From Nitrospinota bacterium (GTDB taxonomy: Bacteria; Nitrospinota; Nitrospinia; Nitrospinales; VA-1): a DNA stretch of 64,000 nt. Made by a program: the position numbers and the translations under genes. Positions 25,477-51,442 of this stretch are shown here, in pieces. The stretch covers positions 62,001 to 126,000 of the forward strand of contig WAIB01000003.1 of NCBI GenBank assembly GCA_009873655.1, given 5' to 3'. Under the pieces are notes generated by a model that was given only the letters and a program-made list of their open reading frames with translations, ran no database searches and was not told where the DNA came from. Numbering within the stretch: the first letter of the stretch is position 1; every line of letters starts with the position of its first letter.

Positions 25477-26127
25477 ATGAAAAAAATTGAAATTAAAATT
25501 TCAGGAAAACCCATCACTGCCCGGGCGGGTGAAACCATCGTGCAGGCCCTTTGGTCTGCGGAAATGGCAGAGTCAGTTCAGACAGGTTGCGCGGGTGGGG
25601 TATGCGGAGCATGCACCGTCACCGTTCGTTATGCCGACGGGAAACCCGGCGGAACCGAGTTGGCCTGTATGAAGCCCGTTGAAGAAGGCATGGAAGTATT
25701 TCCTTGTCCGGTGGAGTCGGACAAGGCGGTAGAACCGGTTGCCAATGCCGATGCTTTGACTTTGCAATCGGTTTTTCCCACGGTCAACCGTTGTACGAAA
25801 TGCGGCAGTTGCACCACAGCCTGTCCGATGTCTATCCCTGTAATGGATTCGGTCATGCGCATGCAGCAGGGGAACTTTAATGAGGTTGCGGAAGATTTCA
25901 CCACCTGTATTCATTGTGGACTCTGCCGCTTTGTCTGTGAGGACAAGGTCAAACCCCATAATATGGGTCTTTGGATCCGTCGTTCTTTAGGGAAGAACCA
26001 GGACGAGCTGAAAATAACCATTGAAGATTCAAATCAGGTCGAGAAAGAATGGCAGTATTTATTGATCGACGAAAAACAGGAAAGATTTCAAAGAGCAAAA
26101 AAGTTTCGTGAAAGCGGGAGTCTATGA
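25477..26127 (+). CDS. Fumarate reductase/succinate dehydrogenase-type iron-sulfur subunit
   Basis: 216 aa. The N-terminal [2Fe-2S] fold has 'GCAGGVCGACTV' plus a later Cys ('ELACMKP'); the C-terminal half has two cluster motifs, 'CTKCGSCTTACP' and 'CIHCGLCRFVCED', as in SdhB/FrdB. It carries electrons to the flavoprotein encoded next, with a 4-bp overlap. No cytochrome b anchor follows, so the pair is probably soluble or docks to an unknown partner. Likely role: fumarate reduction in a reductive TCA cycle or anaplerosis (inferred). Confidence 0.86.
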   Translation: MKKIEIKISGKPITARAGETIVQALWSAEMAESVQTGCAGGVCGACTVTVRYADGKPGGTELACMKPVEEGMEVFPCPVESDKAVEPVANADALTLQSVFPTVNRCTKCGSCTTACPMSIPVMDSVMRMQQGNFNEVAEDFTTCIHCGLCRFVCEDKVKPHNMGLWIRRSLGKNQDELKITIEDSNQVEKEWQYLLIDEKQERFQRAKKFRESGSL

Positions 26128-27785
26128 TGGAGTGGGCTAAAGAATCCCTGGAAAAAGTGGAACGCTCCCGTGAAACCCGTCTGCACCAACCCGCTCCCCT
26201 GCCAAATGAAAAAGAATCAGAAAACATTCTGAAAAATTTTCATCCCGATTATTTGGGAAAAGAAAGAACGGTTGGCGTCGGCCCCAATGCGGGGGATCAA
26301 AAATTCCCCTTGGAACTTGCGGATTTATTGGAGGCGGACAGCCCGCTTCCTGCTTCACATTCTACCGAACCGGATATTGAAACCGATGTGCTGATCATTG
26401 GCGGAGGCGGAGCGGGTGCGGCAGCAGCCCTGTCATTGGAGGGATTGGGACTAAAAACGCATCTCGCCACAAAACTGCGACTGGGTGATTCCAATACCGT
26501 AATGGCAGAGGGGGGAATTCAGGCGGCGTTGGCTGAAAACGATACCCCGAGAAAGCATTTTGCCGATGCTCTTGTGGGAGGGCATGGGGAAAACAAAACA
26601 GACCTTTTACGAATTCTCTGCGAAAGCGGACCCGAGGTCATTCAGTGGCTCAGTAAACTTGGCTGTTTGTTTGACCGAAATTCAGATGGGACTTTTCGTT
26701 TAAGAGGGGGAGGGGGAACTTCAGTGCCGCGTGTGCTGGCCTGTCGTGATTATACGGGCCTGGAAATCATGCGTGTGTTGAAAGACGCGGTGAGGTTGAG
26801 CTCGACAAATATTTTAGAAGAACATGCCGCGGTGGAGCTTTTCGATGATGGAAACTCGACCGTGACGGGGGCGGTTTTGTATGACCGGAAAAAGGGAAGC
26901 CTGGTCAATGTTTCCGCGCGAGCCGTGATCCTTGCGACGGGAGGCAGTGGACAACTGCGGTTGCAGGATTTCCCAACGAGCAATCATGTCGGTGCGACCG
27001 GCGACGGGTTAGTCCTTGCTTACAGGCAGGGCTGCCGCCTTAAATTTCTGGACAGTTATCAGTATCACCCCTCGGGGGCCTGCTACCCGGAGGCGCTGGC
27101 AGGGCAATTGGTCACCGAAGCCATTCGGTCTGTGGGGGCGCAGGTGGTCAATGCCGAGGGAGTTCATTTCATAAACGAAATGGCTTATCGCGATGTTTTA
27201 GCCGGGGCGATTATTAAAGAAACCCGGGAAGGTCGGGGGGTCACGACTCCCAATGGAAAAATGGGAGTCTGGTTGGATACGCCCATGATCGATATGCAAA
27301 AGGGTGAAGGAACTTTGGCGAAACAGTTTCCCGGCCTGATTCATCGCTTTGAGCGATACCGGATAGACCCGGTCAAAACCCCGATTTTGATTTACCCAAC
27401 CTTGCATTACCAGAATGGTGGGGTTTCGGTGGATGCCCAGTGTAGAACAGAAGTCAATGGGTTATGGGCCTGCGGGGAAGTGACGGGAGGGTTGCATGGC
27501 AAAAACCGTCTTATGGGAAATTCGCTGCTGGATATTCTCGTTTTCGGTCGCCGTGCTGCCCAATCGGCAAAAGACCATTTGCCTGAACGAGGCCCATTGA
27601 CATTAACCAATTTGAATCAATTTAGAAAAAATCAGTTGAAACCAAAGTATTCACCGGTATTCTTTCCCGAAGCATCTAAAATGAAACTGGAGTTGGGGGC
27701 GCTTGAATCAGAAGTGAAAATAACCGAATCCCCCTCCTCGGAGCAGACAGGAAGCTTCGAGCCTCCGGATCCCTTCGCCCGATAA
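26124..27785 (+). CDS. Fumarate reductase-type flavoprotein lacking the FAD-linking histidine
   Basis: 553 aa with an unusual ~85-residue N-terminal extension ('HPDYLGKERTVGVGPNAGDQ') before the Rossmann motif 'IIGGGGAGAAAAL'. Substrate-site motifs of the SdhA/FrdA family remain ('YRDVLAG', 'LHYQNGGVSVD', 'GKNRLMGNSLLD'). At the flavinylation site, SdhA has SHTVAAQGG; this protein reads 'SNTVMAEGG' (Asn at about residue 124), so FAD should be non-covalent. In E. coli FrdA, loss of that His abolishes succinate oxidation but keeps fumarate reduction, so this is best read as a one-way fumarate reductase. L-aspartate oxidase is less likely because of the Fe-S partner. Confidence 0.83.
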   Translation: MMEWAKESLEKVERSRETRLHQPAPLPNEKESENILKNFHPDYLGKERTVGVGPNAGDQKFPLELADLLEADSPLPASHSTEPDIETDVLIIGGGGAGAAAALSLEGLGLKTHLATKLRLGDSNTVMAEGGIQAALAENDTPRKHFADALVGGHGENKTDLLRILCESGPEVIQWLSKLGCLFDRNSDGTFRLRGGGGTSVPRVLACRDYTGLEIMRVLKDAVRLSSTNILEEHAAVELFDDGNSTVTGAVLYDRKKGSLVNVSARAVILATGGSGQLRLQDFPTSNHVGATGDGLVLAYRQGCRLKFLDSYQYHPSGACYPEALAGQLVTEAIRSVGAQVVNAEGVHFINEMAYRDVLAGAIIKETREGRGVTTPNGKMGVWLDTPMIDMQKGEGTLAKQFPGLIHRFERYRIDPVKTPILIYPTLHYQNGGVSVDAQCRTEVNGLWACGEVTGGLHGKNRLMGNSLLDILVFGRRAAQSAKDHLPERGPLTLTNLNQFRKNQLKPKYSPVFFPEASKMKLELGALESEVKITESPSSEQTGSFEPPDPFAR

Positions 27786-27799
27786 TTTTTCCTGGAAAA

Positions 27800-28363
27800 A
27801 TGCCTGAAAATTTCCTTTCCGAATATGGAGCAAAAATTATTGCGTCTCTCCTGGCACTGGGGTCATTGGCCGTGTTTTTGATCCGCCAAAGTCGAGACCG
27901 GGCCAATGCGGACCCCAATGCGGTAATAAATGTATTGAACCAGTTGGGACCCGACTATGAGGTGCTAGCCAATGTTGTGGTCCCCGGGGACCGCGGTATG
28001 TTCGATTTGGGAAATGTGGTGGTCTCCCCCTATGGGGTTTTTGTTATCACGGTGAGACAGACGGTCGGAAAAATATCTGGCAGGGAAGGGGATCGAGAAT
28101 GGGAGGTGAAATCAGGAAGAAGCCGGAAATTTATTTCCAATCCCCTTTGGGAAAATCGCAAACATGTAAATGCCCTGGAAAAGGTCATTGGGTCTGTTCC
28201 ATTTATTTCCGTAGTGGTTTTTCCAAGGGGAAAATTAAAAGGCAAATTTGGTAATAACGTTATTCGATTGGGGGAGCTTGGAAAGTTTATCTCTCAAAAT
28301 AAAACATCCCGCCTGTCGGTGGACAAGCGGGATGAGATTTTAAAGGCTTTACGAAAAAGATAG
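27800..28363 (+). CDS. Membrane-anchored NERD-domain protein, probably catalytically altered
   Basis: 187 aa with one N-terminal membrane segment ('IIASLLALGSLAVFLIR') and a nuclease-related domain: 'VLANVVVPGDRGMFDLGNVV', then 'SPYGVFVITVRQTVGKISG' and 'NPLWENRKHVNALEKVI'. In typical NERD domains 'GxDHVVVxxxGxFxIExK' supplies Asp and the E-x-K pair; here the position reads ITVR, so the catalytic E-x-K looks lost. It starts 14 bp after the fumarate reductase flavoprotein, probably in the same transcript. Function unknown. Confidence 0.7.
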   Translation: MPENFLSEYGAKIIASLLALGSLAVFLIRQSRDRANADPNAVINVLNQLGPDYEVLANVVVPGDRGMFDLGNVVVSPYGVFVITVRQTVGKISGREGDREWEVKSGRSRKFISNPLWENRKHVNALEKVIGSVPFISVVVFPRGKLKGKFGNNVIRLGELGKFISQNKTSRLSVDKRDEILKALRKR

Positions 28364-45851: not shown

Positions 45852-46269
45852 ATGAATACTCCAGAAATGGCTGGGGTTTTAGGGACCGTTTCCCTATCAA
45901 TGGGAAAATGAATTTAGGTTGATGAGTCAATATTATTTGTATTAATAGGAGGGGGGACTTAAATTTCAATAGTTTGTACATCACCTTCATTGGCTGGAGT
46001 TATTATGCTGGGCTTGAGGTGCTTTTGCAACCTCAATTTCATTTTGCTTGACTTTCAAGGGGGGGAAATGTTTAAATTCTCCCTCGATTTTAGTTCCGGT
46101 CACGGCCCCGATCGACAACCTCTCCAAGCGGATTCCAACTAAGTTTTCTTAGATTTTTCAAAGGTTTTCATGGCTTTTGGGGTGCCGGAAAGAATGATGA
46201 CAGCAACGGCTCGATCAGGGCAATGAGTTGATAACCTGTCATGTCTAATTGTTTGCCCGAGGTGTTTTT
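45852..46269. other. About 400-bp region upstream of the succinate dehydrogenase operon
   Basis: Probably holds divergent promoters for the DEAD-box gene and sdhA. A TTGACT with TTTAAA 17 bp later (near 46050-46078) could serve sdhA. A 45-codon plus-strand ORF (46005-46142) is present but has no convincing features. No RNA gene or repeat seen. Confidence 0.4.
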
Positions 46270-47979
46270 GTGATCGAACATGATGTGGTGATCGTAGGTG
46301 CAGGCCTTGCAGGAATGCGTTGCGCACTGGAGGTTTGCAAAGAACTTGATGTCGCCGTTTTAACCAAAGTTTATCCTTCCCGGTCGCATTCGGGTGCCGC
46401 CCAGGGTGGAATAGCCGCTTCCCTTGGCAATTCTGAGCCGGACAGCTGGGAAGAGCATATGTATGATACCGTTAAAGGCGGTGATTTCCTCAATGATCAG
46501 GATGCGGTTGAGGAATATGTAAAAGCGGCCCCGAGAGTCATCTACGAACTAGAGCACATGGGTTGCGTATTCAGTCGCACCCCGGAAGGAAAAATCGCCC
46601 AACGTAGTTTTGGCGGTCATTCGAAACCCCGCGCCTGTTTCTCCGCCGACCGAACCGGTCACGCCATTCTGCATGCTCTTCACGAGCAGCTGATGAAAAA
46701 TTCCAAATCCGTAAAAATTTATAATGAGTGGTATATGCATTCCCTTGTTGTCGATGGGGATCGCTGCAACGGGGTTATTGTAAGCAATATTCAGACAGGG
46801 GAAGTCGAAGTCATCCGTGCCAAAGCCGTGGTCTTTTGCACCGGGGGTTATGGACGCGTATTTAAAATTACCTCCAACGCTTTTGCCAGCACCGCGGATG
46901 GCGTAATGGCCGCATTTGAAGTGGGGATTCCTCTTGAAGATCCCGAATTCGTGCAGTTTCATCCCTCGGGTCTATACCGGCAGGGTATTTTGTTTTCTGA
47001 AGCCGCCAGGGGTGAGGGAGGATTTTTGTTGAATGGAAAAGGCGAGCGCTTTATGGAAGCGTATGCCCCCTCTCGAATGGAGCTGGCGCCCCGCGATATT
47101 GTGGCGCGCGCGGAACAAAGTGAAATGGATGCGGGACGAGGTGTCAACGGAGAAGACTGCATTCATCTTGATCTGCGACATCTGGGCGAAGCTCGAATCA
47201 TGGAACGCCTGCCGCAAATCAGGCAATTGGGAATTGACTTCATTGGGGTGGATTGTGTTAAAGACCCTCTGCCCATCCAGCCTACCGCGCATTACTCTAT
47301 GGGAGGGATTCCCGTAGATATGAACTGTCACGTCATTCTCGATTCTGAAGGGACAAAGATGAATGGTTTTTTCGCGGCGGGCGAATGCGCATGTGTTTCG
47401 GTCCATGGCGGAAACCGGTTGGGAACAAATTCCCTTCTTGATGCCGTGGTGTTTGGCGAACGTGCCGGTAAATCTGTCCTTGATTATGCCAGGGGAAAAG
47501 ACTTCGGTAACGTTAACGAAGGTCGGGAAAAAGCAAGGGTGTTGGAAAAGTTTGAGGATATTTTCCAAAGAGATGGTAGCGAAAGCTACAACCAGATCCG
47601 TGACGAAATGAAAGAGATTATGATGACAAACTGCGGTGTTTTCCGCGATGAAGAAAGACTGAAAGACTGCATAGAAACTCTTAAAGGACTGCGGGAGCGG
47701 TTCAAAAAAGGTAAAGTAACGGATAAGGGAAAACTGTTCAATACAGAGATTTATGAAATTATGGAACTGGGTAATATGCTGGGCATGGCAGTGATTATAG
47801 CTACCGCTGCATTAAGAAGGCAGGAAAGTCGCGGTGGGCATTTCCGCACTGACTTCCCGAAACGCGATGACGAAAAATTCCTGCACCACTCCATGGTTTA
47901 TGATTCGCCGGATGGGTTGGACATAAAAACCAAGCCAGTGGTAATTACTAAATATCAACCTGCTGAAAGAACTTATTGA
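46270..47979 (+). CDS. sdhA: Succinate dehydrogenase/fumarate reductase flavoprotein subunit
   Basis: About 569 aa from the GTG at 46270, which follows GAGGTG; the track's TTG is seven codons earlier. FAD motif '[17 protein letters not shown]'; covalent FAD site '[11 protein letters not shown]' with the His kept; substrate motifs '[10 protein letters not shown]', '[12 protein letters not shown]' and '[12 protein letters not shown]'. It oxidises succinate or reduces fumarate as part of an SdhA-SdhB-SdhE complex. The retained His contrasts with the flavoprotein at 26 kb, so this is the likely succinate-oxidising (or reversible) enzyme. Confidence 0.94.
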
Positions 47980-48920
47980 TGGCAACATTCAGGATCAAAC
48001 GGTTCAATCCGGAAAAACAGCCCGAACCTTACTTCGAAGAATTCCAACTGGATATTCCTCATGGCGCCACCCTTCTGGATTGCATGAATGAGATCAAGTG
48101 GACTCTCGATGGCAGTCTTTCGTACCGCATGTCCTGTCGAAGCGCTATTTGCGGTTCATGCGCGGTCAAGGCAAACGGCCATGCCTTACTGGCCTGTCAA
48201 CGCCAGGGAGAACACCTTCTGCAAAACGATGACACGATCACACTGGAACCGCTTGGAAATATGAAGCCCATCAAAGACCTTGTTGTGGACTTCACCCCTT
48301 TCTGGGACAAGGTCAATAAAATAAAACCGTATCTGGAACCAAAAGAAGATCCTCCGGAAAAAGAAAGACATCAGTCGCAGGAAGAGTTTCGCCTGATAGA
48401 TGACTCCAGCACCTGCATCATGTGTGGGGCCTGCTATTCCGACTGCAATACTTTGGAGGTGGATGATAATTTCCTCGGACCCGCAGCACTGGCAAAAGCG
48501 CAGCGGTTTGTCGGTGATTCCAGAGATTCCAAAACCCTGCAACGGGTGCGGGACCTGAGTGAGCCGGGGGGCATATGGGACTGCACCCATTGCGCCGAAT
48601 GTGTGGAACGGTGTCCGAAACCGGCACGTCCTTTCGACCGCATTAAGGAAATCATGACGGTTGCCCTGGAACAGGGAGTGCACAACAATAACGGGGCCAG
48701 GCACGCACTTTCTTTCACCAATTCGGTTAAAAGAAGCGGCACGCTTGATGAAAACAGGATCGCACCTGAGTCCGTAGGAATATTTAATATTTCGGGTTTG
48801 ATCGGACTGATTCCCATCGGACTCAGAATGCTGCTCAAAGGAAAAATCCCACCGATCTTTCATAAATCGATTGAAGAGGTAGATGACGTCAAACGCATAT
48901 TCAAGGAGTTGGATCAATGA
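47979..48920 (+). CDS. sdhB: Succinate dehydrogenase iron-sulfur subunit
   Basis: About 313 aa; the ATG at 47979 overlaps the sdhA stop. [2Fe-2S] motif '[21 protein letters not shown]'-type, then '[16 protein letters not shown]' and '[17 protein letters not shown]' for the other clusters. The C-terminal ~90 residues extend beyond E. coli SdhB and include a mildly hydrophobic stretch ('[20 protein letters not shown]'), as in SdhB of HdrB-linked complexes. It passes electrons between the flavin and SdhE. Confidence 0.93.
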
Positions 48921-49810
48921 AGTTCGCCCTTTTTACCGGATGTGTCGCCAAAGGGGCGACTCGAGAGCTGATGCTCTCCACCACCAAAGCCGCAGAAGGT
49001 TTGGGATTTGAATTTGTCGAAATGAAAAGCGCATCCTGCTGTGGCGCGGGAGTGGTTTCAGAAAAAAGTCCCCTGCTGGCAGACGCCTTGAACGCCCGTT
49101 CATTTTCAATTGCCGAAAAACAGGGGCTGGACATCGTAACCATTTGTTCTACCTGTCAGGGAACCCTGAAGAAAACCGAAGCGCATCTAAACGAAAGCAA
49201 AGAGTATAAGGAAAAGGTAAACGACATCCTCGAAGATGGGGGACACCAGTATAACGGCAAGACAAAAATCAAACATTTTGCCAACATCCTCGCCACGGAA
49301 GAGGGAATGGCAAGATTGAAATCGCGAATCAAAAAACCTTTAACGGGATTAAAAGTCGCGGCGTTTTATGGGTGTTACGTTTTGCGTCCCTCTGAAAGGT
49401 CAGACTTTGATAATCCGGACAACCCTACGGGTATGGAAGAAATTTTCGAGGCCCTGGGGGCGACGCCGGTTTATTATCCCAGCCGTGTAAAATGTTGCGG
49501 GTTTCCCATCGTCATGATGAACAAAAACGCATCCCTCGGTATGTCCGGCAACGCGTTGCAGGATGCCATCGAACACGGAGCCGATGTGGTAGCTACCGGG
49601 TGTCCGCTATGCCATTTAAGCCTCGACTCTTATCAGCCCGAAATTGAGTTGCTGCAAAAGAAAAACCAGTCCATCCCCATCCTGCATTTGCCGCAGCTCG
49701 TTGCCCTGGCTCTGGGCTACACGCCAACCCAACTGGGAATGGACACGCACATTGTCTCCACACTCAAAATCAACCAGATCCTATCCGGTTCCCATTCCGC
49801 TGCCCATTAA
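48917..49810 (+). CDS. HdrB-like succinate dehydrogenase subunit (SdhE, CCG domains)
   Basis: 297 aa. Two complete Cys-rich CCG modules: C9 with '[10 protein letters not shown]' and 'CSTCQGTL', and 'YGCYVL' with 'KCCGFPIVM' and 'CPLCHLSL'. These bind the unusual [4Fe-4S] clusters of heterodisulfide reductase HdrB. The subunit replaces the heme-b membrane anchor in type E succinate:quinone reductases of archaea, cyanobacteria and some bacteria. It overlaps the sdhB stop by 4 bp. It has no membrane helices, so membrane contact is monotopic or indirect. Confidence 0.9.
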
Positions 49811-49906: not shown

Positions 49907-51442
49907 GTGGAAACGCTCTTCAAAAAACAAATCACTGTTCTTATAATTGGATTTGCTGTGTTCTGCGGCATCCTGATCATGCCGGCTCCAGGTGGAATGA
50001 CGGAAAGCGCACAGCGTATGTTGGCCGTGGTTTCATTGATGGCGATCTGGTGGGTGGGAGAGGGGACCTCGCTTGCCGCAACGGCAATGTTACCGCTGGC
50101 CTTGTTTCCCCTTCTTGGCATCATGCCGAGCAAACAGGTTGCTTCCAGTTACGCCAACCACCTTATCTTTCTCTTTCTCGGCGGATTCATGATCGCTCTC
50201 GCCATGGAGAAATGGAATTTCCATAAACGCCTTGCGTTATGGATCATCTCGGCGATGGGTACGCAGCCAAAACGCATCGTTCTTGGATTCATGATCGCCA
50301 CGGCGTTTTTGTCGATGTGGATTTCCAATACCGCGTCAACCATGATGATGCTGCCTGTTGCAATGGCAGTGGTGAGGCAAATCGCTTCCGGATCATCCCT
50401 TGAGGGGGAAAGAAATCAGGAGTCGCAAATAAAAATTGAAAAGGGACTGGGATTGGTCTTAATGCTGGGTCTGGCCTACTCGGCCAGCATCGGCGGAGTA
50501 GGAACACCGATTGGCACACCCCCGAATATAGTCTTTGCTGGATTCTATAAAAAAATGTTTCCGGATAACCCGGACATCAACTTTTTTCAGTGGATGACTT
50601 TGGCTATTCCCATCGTCCTGGTATTTATTCCCCTTACCTGGGTGTATCTTTGCCGGTTTGTTTCACCTTTTCCAATCAGCCAGATCGAAGGCGGGGAAAG
50701 CGGGATCATTAAGCAGGAGCTGGATGCCCTGGGATCCATGAGTCGGGGGGAAAAAATAGTGGCAACCGTTTTTTGCCTTACTGCCTTGCTATGGATTTTC
50801 AGGCGACCCATTGCCCTGGGTGATTTCATAATTCCGGGCTGGTCACAATTGTTTCCACATCAAAAGTTTTTGCATGACTCCACGGTAGCCATGGTGATGG
50901 GACTGTTGCTGATGGTGATGCCGGTTAATGGTGGTCTTGCCCTGGAACGTAAAACGGAATGGTTTGTTTTGGACTGGAAAACCGTTCAAACTAAAACTCC
51001 CTGGGGAATATTGATTTTATTTGGCGGTGGTTTCGCCCTGGCAGCGGGGTTCGGAGTGAGTGGGTTGGATAAATGGATTGGAGCTCAATTGACCGCTGTT
51101 TCAAACTGGCCGTTGTGGATGACTGTCCTTGCAATTTGTATTGGGGTTACTTTTTTAACCGAACTGACTTCCAACACCGCTACGACTACGATGATTCTTC
51201 CCATTCTGGGAATGGCCGCGGTAGCGGCAAAAATCCATCCGTTGTTTCTTATGGTTCCCGCGACATTGGCAGCTTCGTTTGCGTTTATGCTGCCGGTGGC
51301 GACGCCTCCCAATGCGATCGTTTTTGGCAGCGGTTGGGTGAGTATTCCCAGGATGTCGAAAGCGGGTTTGATCCTCAACCTCATCGGTGCGGGAATTGTT
51401 ACTTCCGCGGTATTGGTTTTAGTCAATGGCCTGCTGCTTTAA
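49907..51442 (+). CDS. SLC13/DASS-family di- or tricarboxylate (anion) transporter
   Basis: 511 aa, about 11-13 membrane helices. Family features: 'FLGGFMIALAMEKWNFHKR' with 'MWISNTASTMMMLPVA' in the first half and 'LTSNTATTTMILPILG' in the second, matching the two SNT sodium/substrate loops of VcINDY, and 'GGVGTPIGTPPNIVFAG'. It probably takes up or exports succinate, malate or a related acid with Na+. Position after sdhABE supports a dicarboxylate link. GTG start. The stop overlaps the convergent gcvPB by 4 bp. Confidence 0.9.
   Translation: METLFKKQITVLIIGFAVFCGILIMPAPGGMTESAQRMLAVVSLMAIWWVGEGTSLAATAMLPLALFPLLGIMPSKQVASSYANHLIFLFLGGFMIALAMEKWNFHKRLALWIISAMGTQPKRIVLGFMIATAFLSMWISNTASTMMMLPVAMAVVRQIASGSSLEGERNQESQIKIEKGLGLVLMLGLAYSASIGGVGTPIGTPPNIVFAGFYKKMFPDNPDINFFQWMTLAIPIVLVFIPLTWVYLCRFVSPFPISQIEGGESGIIKQELDALGSMSRGEKIVATVFCLTALLWIFRRPIALGDFIIPGWSQLFPHQKFLHDSTVAMVMGLLLMVMPVNGGLALERKTEWFVLDWKTVQTKTPWGILILFGGGFALAAGFGVSGLDKWIGAQLTAVSNWPLWMTVLAICIGVTFLTELTSNTATTTMILPILGMAAVAAKIHPLFLMVPATLAASFAFMLPVATPPNAIVFGSGWVSIPRMSKAGLILNLIGAGIVTSAVLVLVNGLLL

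Follow-up and report, generated by a model that had tools for sequence, protein, structure and literature searches.

Organization of the gene pair

The window analysed here, a stretch of 64,000 nucleotides from contig C33 of a Nitrospinota genome, carries at 25477-27785 an overlapping pair of genes which, in the ORF list of this marine nitrite oxidizer of the Nitrospinaceae, encode an Fe-S protein and an SdhA/FrdA-like flavoprotein (Table 1). Both open reading frames are real and lie at the coordinates that the earlier note had given for them, and its accompanying claim, that the flavoprotein has an Fe-S partner and lacks a membrane anchor, also held: no known anchor gene adjoins the pair, whether among the ORFs of the window or in the gene neighbourhoods of the family. 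The gene for a NERD-domain protein at 27800-28363 was considered as an anchor because it starts 14 bp past frdA and has an N-terminal hydrophobic stretch. It is kept at that position in most Nitrospinota loci and missing in some; as an anchor it was rejected, being absent beside four Nitrospinota copies (L020, L021, L034 and L035) and in Nitrospirota, and not being a known anchor.

Table 1. Features of the gene pair, with positions in the window
Feature	Position	Strand	Description and basis
Fe-S subunit, FrdB-like	25477..26127	+	216 aa; ORF; Fer2_4 and Fer4_9 matches; N-terminal [2Fe-2S] domain, then 2x[4Fe-4S] dicluster domain
[2Fe-2S] cysteines C38, C43, C46, C64	25588..25668	+	Invariant alignment columns
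First [4Fe-4S] motif CxxCxxCxxxCP (C106-C116)	25792..25824	+	Invariant alignment columns
Second [4Fe-4S] motif CxxCxxCxxxC (C144-C154)	25906..25938	+	Invariant alignment columns
Flavoprotein subunit, FrdA-like	26124..27785	+	553 aa; 4 bp overlap with Fe-S gene; ORF, Pfam and model
N-terminal extension, residues 1-84, ahead of Rossmann fold	26124..26375	+	Family conservation
Asn124 codon AAT at FAD-linking His position	26493..26495	+	Sequence; alignment to E. coli FrdA/SdhA
Active-site H315, T331-E332 (E. coli FrdA H233, T245, E246)	27066..27119	+	Alignment
Arg356 (FrdA R288, proton-delivery arginine)	27189..27191	+	Alignment
His428 to Arg462 (FrdA H356 and R391, substrate carboxylate ligands)	27405..27509	+	Alignment

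Twelve cysteines are invariant in 17 Fe-S subunit sequences from two phyla, and because they form one [2Fe-2S] and two ferredoxin-like [4Fe-4S] motifs, the classical quinone-facing [3Fe-4S] motif is absent from the subunit throughout this alignment. Classical SdhB/FrdB carries its quinone-proximal [3Fe-4S] cluster where the second [4Fe-4S] motif stands here. The structural model of the subunit gave no useful whole-fold match (TM about 0.3). The gene for the Fe-S partner adjoins that of the flavoprotein in every locus long enough to contain both; one deep Nitrospirota genome (locus L151, 6428-9515) has two tandem Fe-S subunit genes before a single flavoprotein gene.

The FAD site, active site and domains of the flavoprotein

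Residues 122-131 of the window flavoprotein read DSNTVMAEGG, and residue-level alignment places Asn124 opposite His45 of E. coli FrdA (counting Met; His44 in the literature), so that the complex-II hallmark for covalent FAD is not present, as the earlier note had read from the sequence. Asn occupies this position in 73 of 73 family rows of one alignment and 40 of 40 of another, across several phyla and including deep Nitrospirota, Ilyobacter and Proteobacteria, and because of this invariance chance was ruled out as the origin of the His-to-Asn change. From the sequence we infer that FAD is held in the flavoprotein without a covalent bond. The proposal that loss of the His link blocks succinate oxidation and not fumarate reduction agrees with the literature, in which succinate oxidation depends on the covalent bond, which also raises the FAD potential, while soluble relatives that bind FAD non-covalently catalyse fumarate reduction alone (PMC9557727). 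The Glu of the AEGG segment, as in FrdA, is found in the window copy and in most members; Nitrospira have Gln, as in SdhA.

The substrate-binding residues of SdhA/FrdA, which had been described as kept, are so, although the site differs from that of FrdA at one position. The dicarboxylate and catalytic residues H233, T245, E246, R288, H356 and R391 of E. coli FrdA are all present in the window protein and are invariant in the family, apart from Ser in place of Thr245 in some members. The Phe of the RFGG segment of FrdA/SdhA (F117 in FrdA, where NadB has its substrate-binding Glu121) is replaced by Gly, so the active site is not identical to that of FrdA. This position is Gly, Cys, Pro or Ala in the 40-row alignment and Gly or Cys in the 73 rows.

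In the Pfam scan the window flavoprotein matched FAD_binding_2 over the whole model (7e-77) and gave no match to the C-terminal domain Succ_DH_flav_C (PF02910), although that domain is found in the genome's own SdhA. The clade as a whole lacks the C-terminal SdhA domain and has a conserved N-terminal extension of about 85 residues (1-84 in the window copy) that is without counterpart in SdhA, FrdA or NadB; R16, R19, H40, P41, D42, G53, N55 and E64 are invariant in it across the family, and AlphaFold2 predicts it, with good confidence, to be largely helical. The AlphaFold2 model of the flavoprotein (pLDDT 80, pTM 0.84) has E. coli FrdA (1kf6_A) as its top fold match, at 31% identity and TM 0.64. 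No NCBIfam equivalog exceeded its cut-off for the flavoprotein; TfrA scored best (330 of 718 bits), followed by NadB and SdhA.

Phylogeny and distribution of the family

In a tree that left out Hydrogenobacter FrdA and TfrA (thiol:fumarate reductase), the flavoprotein family is monophyletic (40 rows, 100/100 support) on a long stem, and is separate both from NadB (L-aspartate oxidase) and from the covalent SdhA/FrdA proteins. Its members come from Nitrospinales, many Nitrospirota, Ilyobacter, Burkholderiales and Pseudoroseomonas. Two flavoproteins on long branches stand nearest to the family, because of which its exact sister is unsure. Placement in a clade with a different substrate had been named beforehand as the outcome that would speak against a fumarate reductase; the tree gave a separate clade, whose members in other phyla have fumarate and TCA-cycle genes as neighbours.

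Within Nitrospinota the family was found in 49 of 77 genomes and is confined to one order. Some Nitrospinaceae of at least 90% completeness gave no match at a strict cut-off, possibly owing to assembly gaps. A contig labelled Kiritimatiellia (L031) carries a copy with 68% identity in the Nitrospinota order frdB-frdA-NERD, and is probably a binning error.

Gene neighbourhoods

In Nitrospinales, ruvBAC-yebC lies divergent to frdB-frdA, which is followed by the NERD gene, yajC and secD. The Nitrospinota pair thus has yebC on one side and a NERD-domain gene on the other and is not near genes of the reductive TCA (rTCA) cycle, which counts against a role in that cycle. In Nitrospira, nearly all loci have the order acn-icd-frdB-frdA-sucC-sucD, with ATP-citrate lyase (ACL) within about 8 kb upstream of frdA (e.g. 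650007 and 657874 in N. moscoviensis). In Leptospirillum-like genomes, genes read by eye run ccs genes-acn-ccl-orf1-frdB-frdA-sucC-sucD, and in one further genome (G275), also read by eye, frdA-frdB is followed by class I fumarase-like genes in two parts. Cupriavidus and Pseudoroseomonas have frdB-frdA-nuoF, next to which Cupriavidus has fumC or dctA, both over cut-off; in Cupriavidus sp. P-10 a class II fumarase and NuoF adjoin frdBA, and on related replicons DctA or DASS dicarboxylate/anion transporters do so. Ilyobacter has a run of aspartase, HdrB, HdrC, HdrA, MvhD-like and Flx-like genes, frdB and frdA, and two other genomes (G107 and G088) hold related copies with similar Hdr/Flx-like neighbours, read by eye. 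On the Ilyobacter polytropus plasmid (L111, 1-10599), aspartase, HdrABC-like and Flx-like genes and frdBA stand in one run, making this a candidate bifurcating fumarate reductase. The gene neighbourhoods in other phyla point to fumarate as the substrate.

Other flavoproteins and rTCA-cycle genes

The window genome has four full-length PF00890 proteins, namely the window flavoprotein, a type E SdhA, NadB and a type B SdhA. The pair had been described as a second fumarate reductase-like enzyme; because type E SdhABE (46249-49810) and a type B SdhCAB operon (contig C58) are both present, both retaining the FAD-linking His, and NadB is separate, it is instead the third complex-II-like enzyme of the genome. 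The mechanical ORF list gives TTG as the start codon of the first two SdhABE genes, and SdhABE is followed by a predicted gene for an anion symporter-like membrane transporter (49907-51442).

A search elsewhere in the genome for ATP-citrate lyase and 2-oxoglutarate:ferredoxin oxidoreductase, which the earlier note had recommended, found ATP-citrate lyase and two genes of the 2-oxoacid:ferredoxin oxidoreductase type (POR_N proteins). The ATP-citrate lyase genes lie on contig C43 (1527-5552 of locus L154), and the small subunit gives a partial Pfam match because a run of N, an assembly gap, interrupts its gene.

Among 246 Nitrospirota genomes, 113 have both the family and ACL, 2 the family only, 7 ACL only and 124 neither, counts that come from related genomes rather than independent events, so that a Fisher value is not a true probability here. 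The gene linkage is support separate from these counts. In Nitrospinota, ACL was found in 64 of 77 genomes and in 40 of the 49 with the family; it is present in 31 of 31 high-quality genomes, some of them without the family, and also in orders that lack the pair, so ACL does not imply the pair. Strict co-occurrence in this phylum was tested and fails to hold in both directions, and because the two distributions do not match, the pair does not strictly mark the rTCA cycle. Nine Leptospirillum-like rTCA genomes were found to hold no SdhA/FrdA-type flavoprotein besides that of the pair, because the remaining PF00890 proteins are NadB or of a distant type (two of five such proteins were tested, both being AprA).

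Proposed function and alternatives

We consider it very likely that the pair makes up a soluble fumarate reductase of two subunits, probably one-way, which serves the rTCA cycle and gives succinate. The suggestion of such an enzyme running beside sdhABE is supported by the clade, by the gene neighbourhoods and by the rTCA-cycle genes of the genome; its activity, its one-way catalysis and its role in Nitrospina are inferred. In the proposed mechanism, electrons from a cytosolic donor would enter the Fe-S subunit through its [2Fe-2S] and two [4Fe-4S] clusters and pass to the non-covalently held FAD of the flavoprotein, from which a hydride would be transferred to fumarate, the proton probably coming from Arg356. 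The succinate would go to SucCD in the reductive cycle. FAD that lacks the His link should have a low potential, for which reason the enzyme is expected to run in one direction only, towards succinate; SdhABE and SdhCAB, which both have the His, could oxidize succinate.

The N. gracilis genome paper describes two SQRs of types B and E and favours the type B enzyme, SQR-1, as the fumarate reductase (PMC3578206). If type B SdhCAB served the rTCA cycle in this way, the soluble pair would be accessory, e.g. for the disposal of excess NADH or of biosynthetic fumarate, which would fit with the intact His of the type B genes in the window genome and with the position of the pair outside the rTCA clusters in Nitrospinota. 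Such an arrangement seems unlikely to us: no type B SdhA is found among the PF00890 matches of N. defluvii and Nitrospira UBC2, which nevertheless carry the pair in an rTCA cluster, and the Leptospirillum-like rTCA genomes have only the pair.

Because the active-site Phe is replaced by a small residue throughout the family, a substrate other than fumarate keeps a small share of the probability, whether another or a bulkier dicarboxylate (a substituted fumarate, for example) or, for an L-aspartate oxidase/dehydrogenase, aspartate. That the scores against the TfrA, NadB and SdhA models all fall below their cut-offs is consistent with this idea, which we nevertheless judge quite improbable, since fumarate and succinate enzymes adjoin the pair in several lineages. 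NadB shares with the flavoprotein its superfamily, solubility and non-covalent FAD but differs in that its Glu121 is lost here, in its separate clade (100/100) and in the Fe-S partner gene that always adjoins ours; on the first two of these grounds, and because the genome has its own NadB, L-aspartate oxidase was rejected. The methanogen enzyme TfrAB is likewise soluble, TfrA gave the highest NCBIfam score, and HdrB-like genes adjoin the relatives in Ilyobacter. An enzyme of the thiol:fumarate reductase type is nonetheless highly improbable, because the 330 bits fall far short of the 718 set as the cut-off for TfrA, the Fe-S subunit scores 24 bits against a TfrB cut-off of 385, and the Pfam scan detected no HdrB-like cysteine-rich domain in that subunit; on these scores and the missing domain, membership was rejected. 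CoM/CoB pathways are also not known from these bacteria.

Possible electron donors of the proposed soluble fumarate reductase

We speculate that the electron donor is NADH or ferredoxin, supplied through NuoF- or Flx/Hdr-type proteins such as those encoded beside relatives. NADH is a candidate, possibly through ferredoxin, given the NADH-binding neighbours seen elsewhere in the family and, in Nitrospira, an orphan nuoF close to malate dehydrogenase. At these Nitrospira loci (L120, L121) a 2Fe-2S ferredoxin gene accompanies the nuoF, an observation that we treat as a lead. The window genome has one NuoF gene in its complex I operon and one of a 610-aa stand-alone form, and an orphan NuoF was set aside as the donor there, with no clear partner among these two genes. 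The fumarate reductase of Hydrogenobacter thermophilus reportedly has five subunits, as against two adjacent genes here. Cited in PMC12743299 (Miura 2008) as soluble and NADH-dependent, that enzyme resembles what we propose for the pair in being a soluble enzyme that reduces fumarate in an rTCA cycle; some relatives of the pair have NADH-linked genes beside them.

More tentatively, the family may be a class of soluble enzymes, fed by NADH or ferredoxin, that has been overlooked and that takes the place of complex II in reducing fumarate for the rTCA cycle of the main nitrite oxidizers (Nitrospina and Nitrospira) and of Leptospirillum. Under this broader proposal, which we put forward as a possibility rather than an expectation, members beside HdrABC/Flx-like genes (Ilyobacter and two Nitrospirota genomes) might couple NADH oxidation to the reduction of fumarate and ferredoxin by flavin-based electron bifurcation, and proteobacterial members would pair with a NuoF-type NADH module.

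Relation to known enzymes

The flavoprotein has its fold and dicarboxylate residues in common with E. coli FrdA/SdhA; those enzymes have a covalent His, a C-terminal domain, an active-site Phe and membrane anchors, whereas the window pair lacks all four and has a new N-terminal extension. The pair is not a new kind of enzyme, because a relative from this family, FrdAB of L. ferriphilum, had already been described in 2008. According to that report, the genes form part of rTCA cluster 1, in the order ccs-acn-ccl-orf1-frd-sucCD-trx, were named frdAB and were co-transcribed by RT-PCR, and no other fumarate reductase genes were found (PMC2607301). This order is that of the Leptospirillum-like genomes of our clade, whose copies are 49-52% identical to the window protein, the match resting on the published gene order as carried by locus L139. 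The authors of the 2008 report assigned the enzyme to type E, wrote of fumarate reductase as an enzyme with covalent FAD and proposed orf1 as a membrane anchor, and in the available part of that report we found no mention of the Asn site or of solubility. The window pair shares with it the flavoprotein clade and the Fe-S partner; unlike the L. ferriphilum genes, the Nitrospinota copies lie outside an rTCA cluster, with no orf1 adjoining.

Measured against the open-licence literature, the non-covalent site and the domain changes appear to be new, and so does the likely role of the family, namely to reduce fumarate in the rTCA cycle of nitrite oxidizers. In Nitrospina and Nitrospira, CO2 fixation by this cycle goes together with oxygen respiration, and the literature assigns fumarate reduction in Nitrospina to quinone-linked complex II; the soluble pair finds no mention in the available part of the N. 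gracilis genome paper (PMC3578206). If the step is carried out by the soluble enzyme, it moves off the quinone pool, the direction of carbon flow is set by enzyme chemistry, and CO2 fixation comes at a different estimated energy cost. N. moscoviensis has three full-length PF00890 proteins, one of which is neither SdhA nor NadB; by its position (about 658 kb) and by elimination, this relative, at 51% identity, would be NITMOv2_0695, a flavoprotein that has been annotated as 'SdhA or NadB', with no function assigned, and that was expressed far above complex II (PMC6606698).
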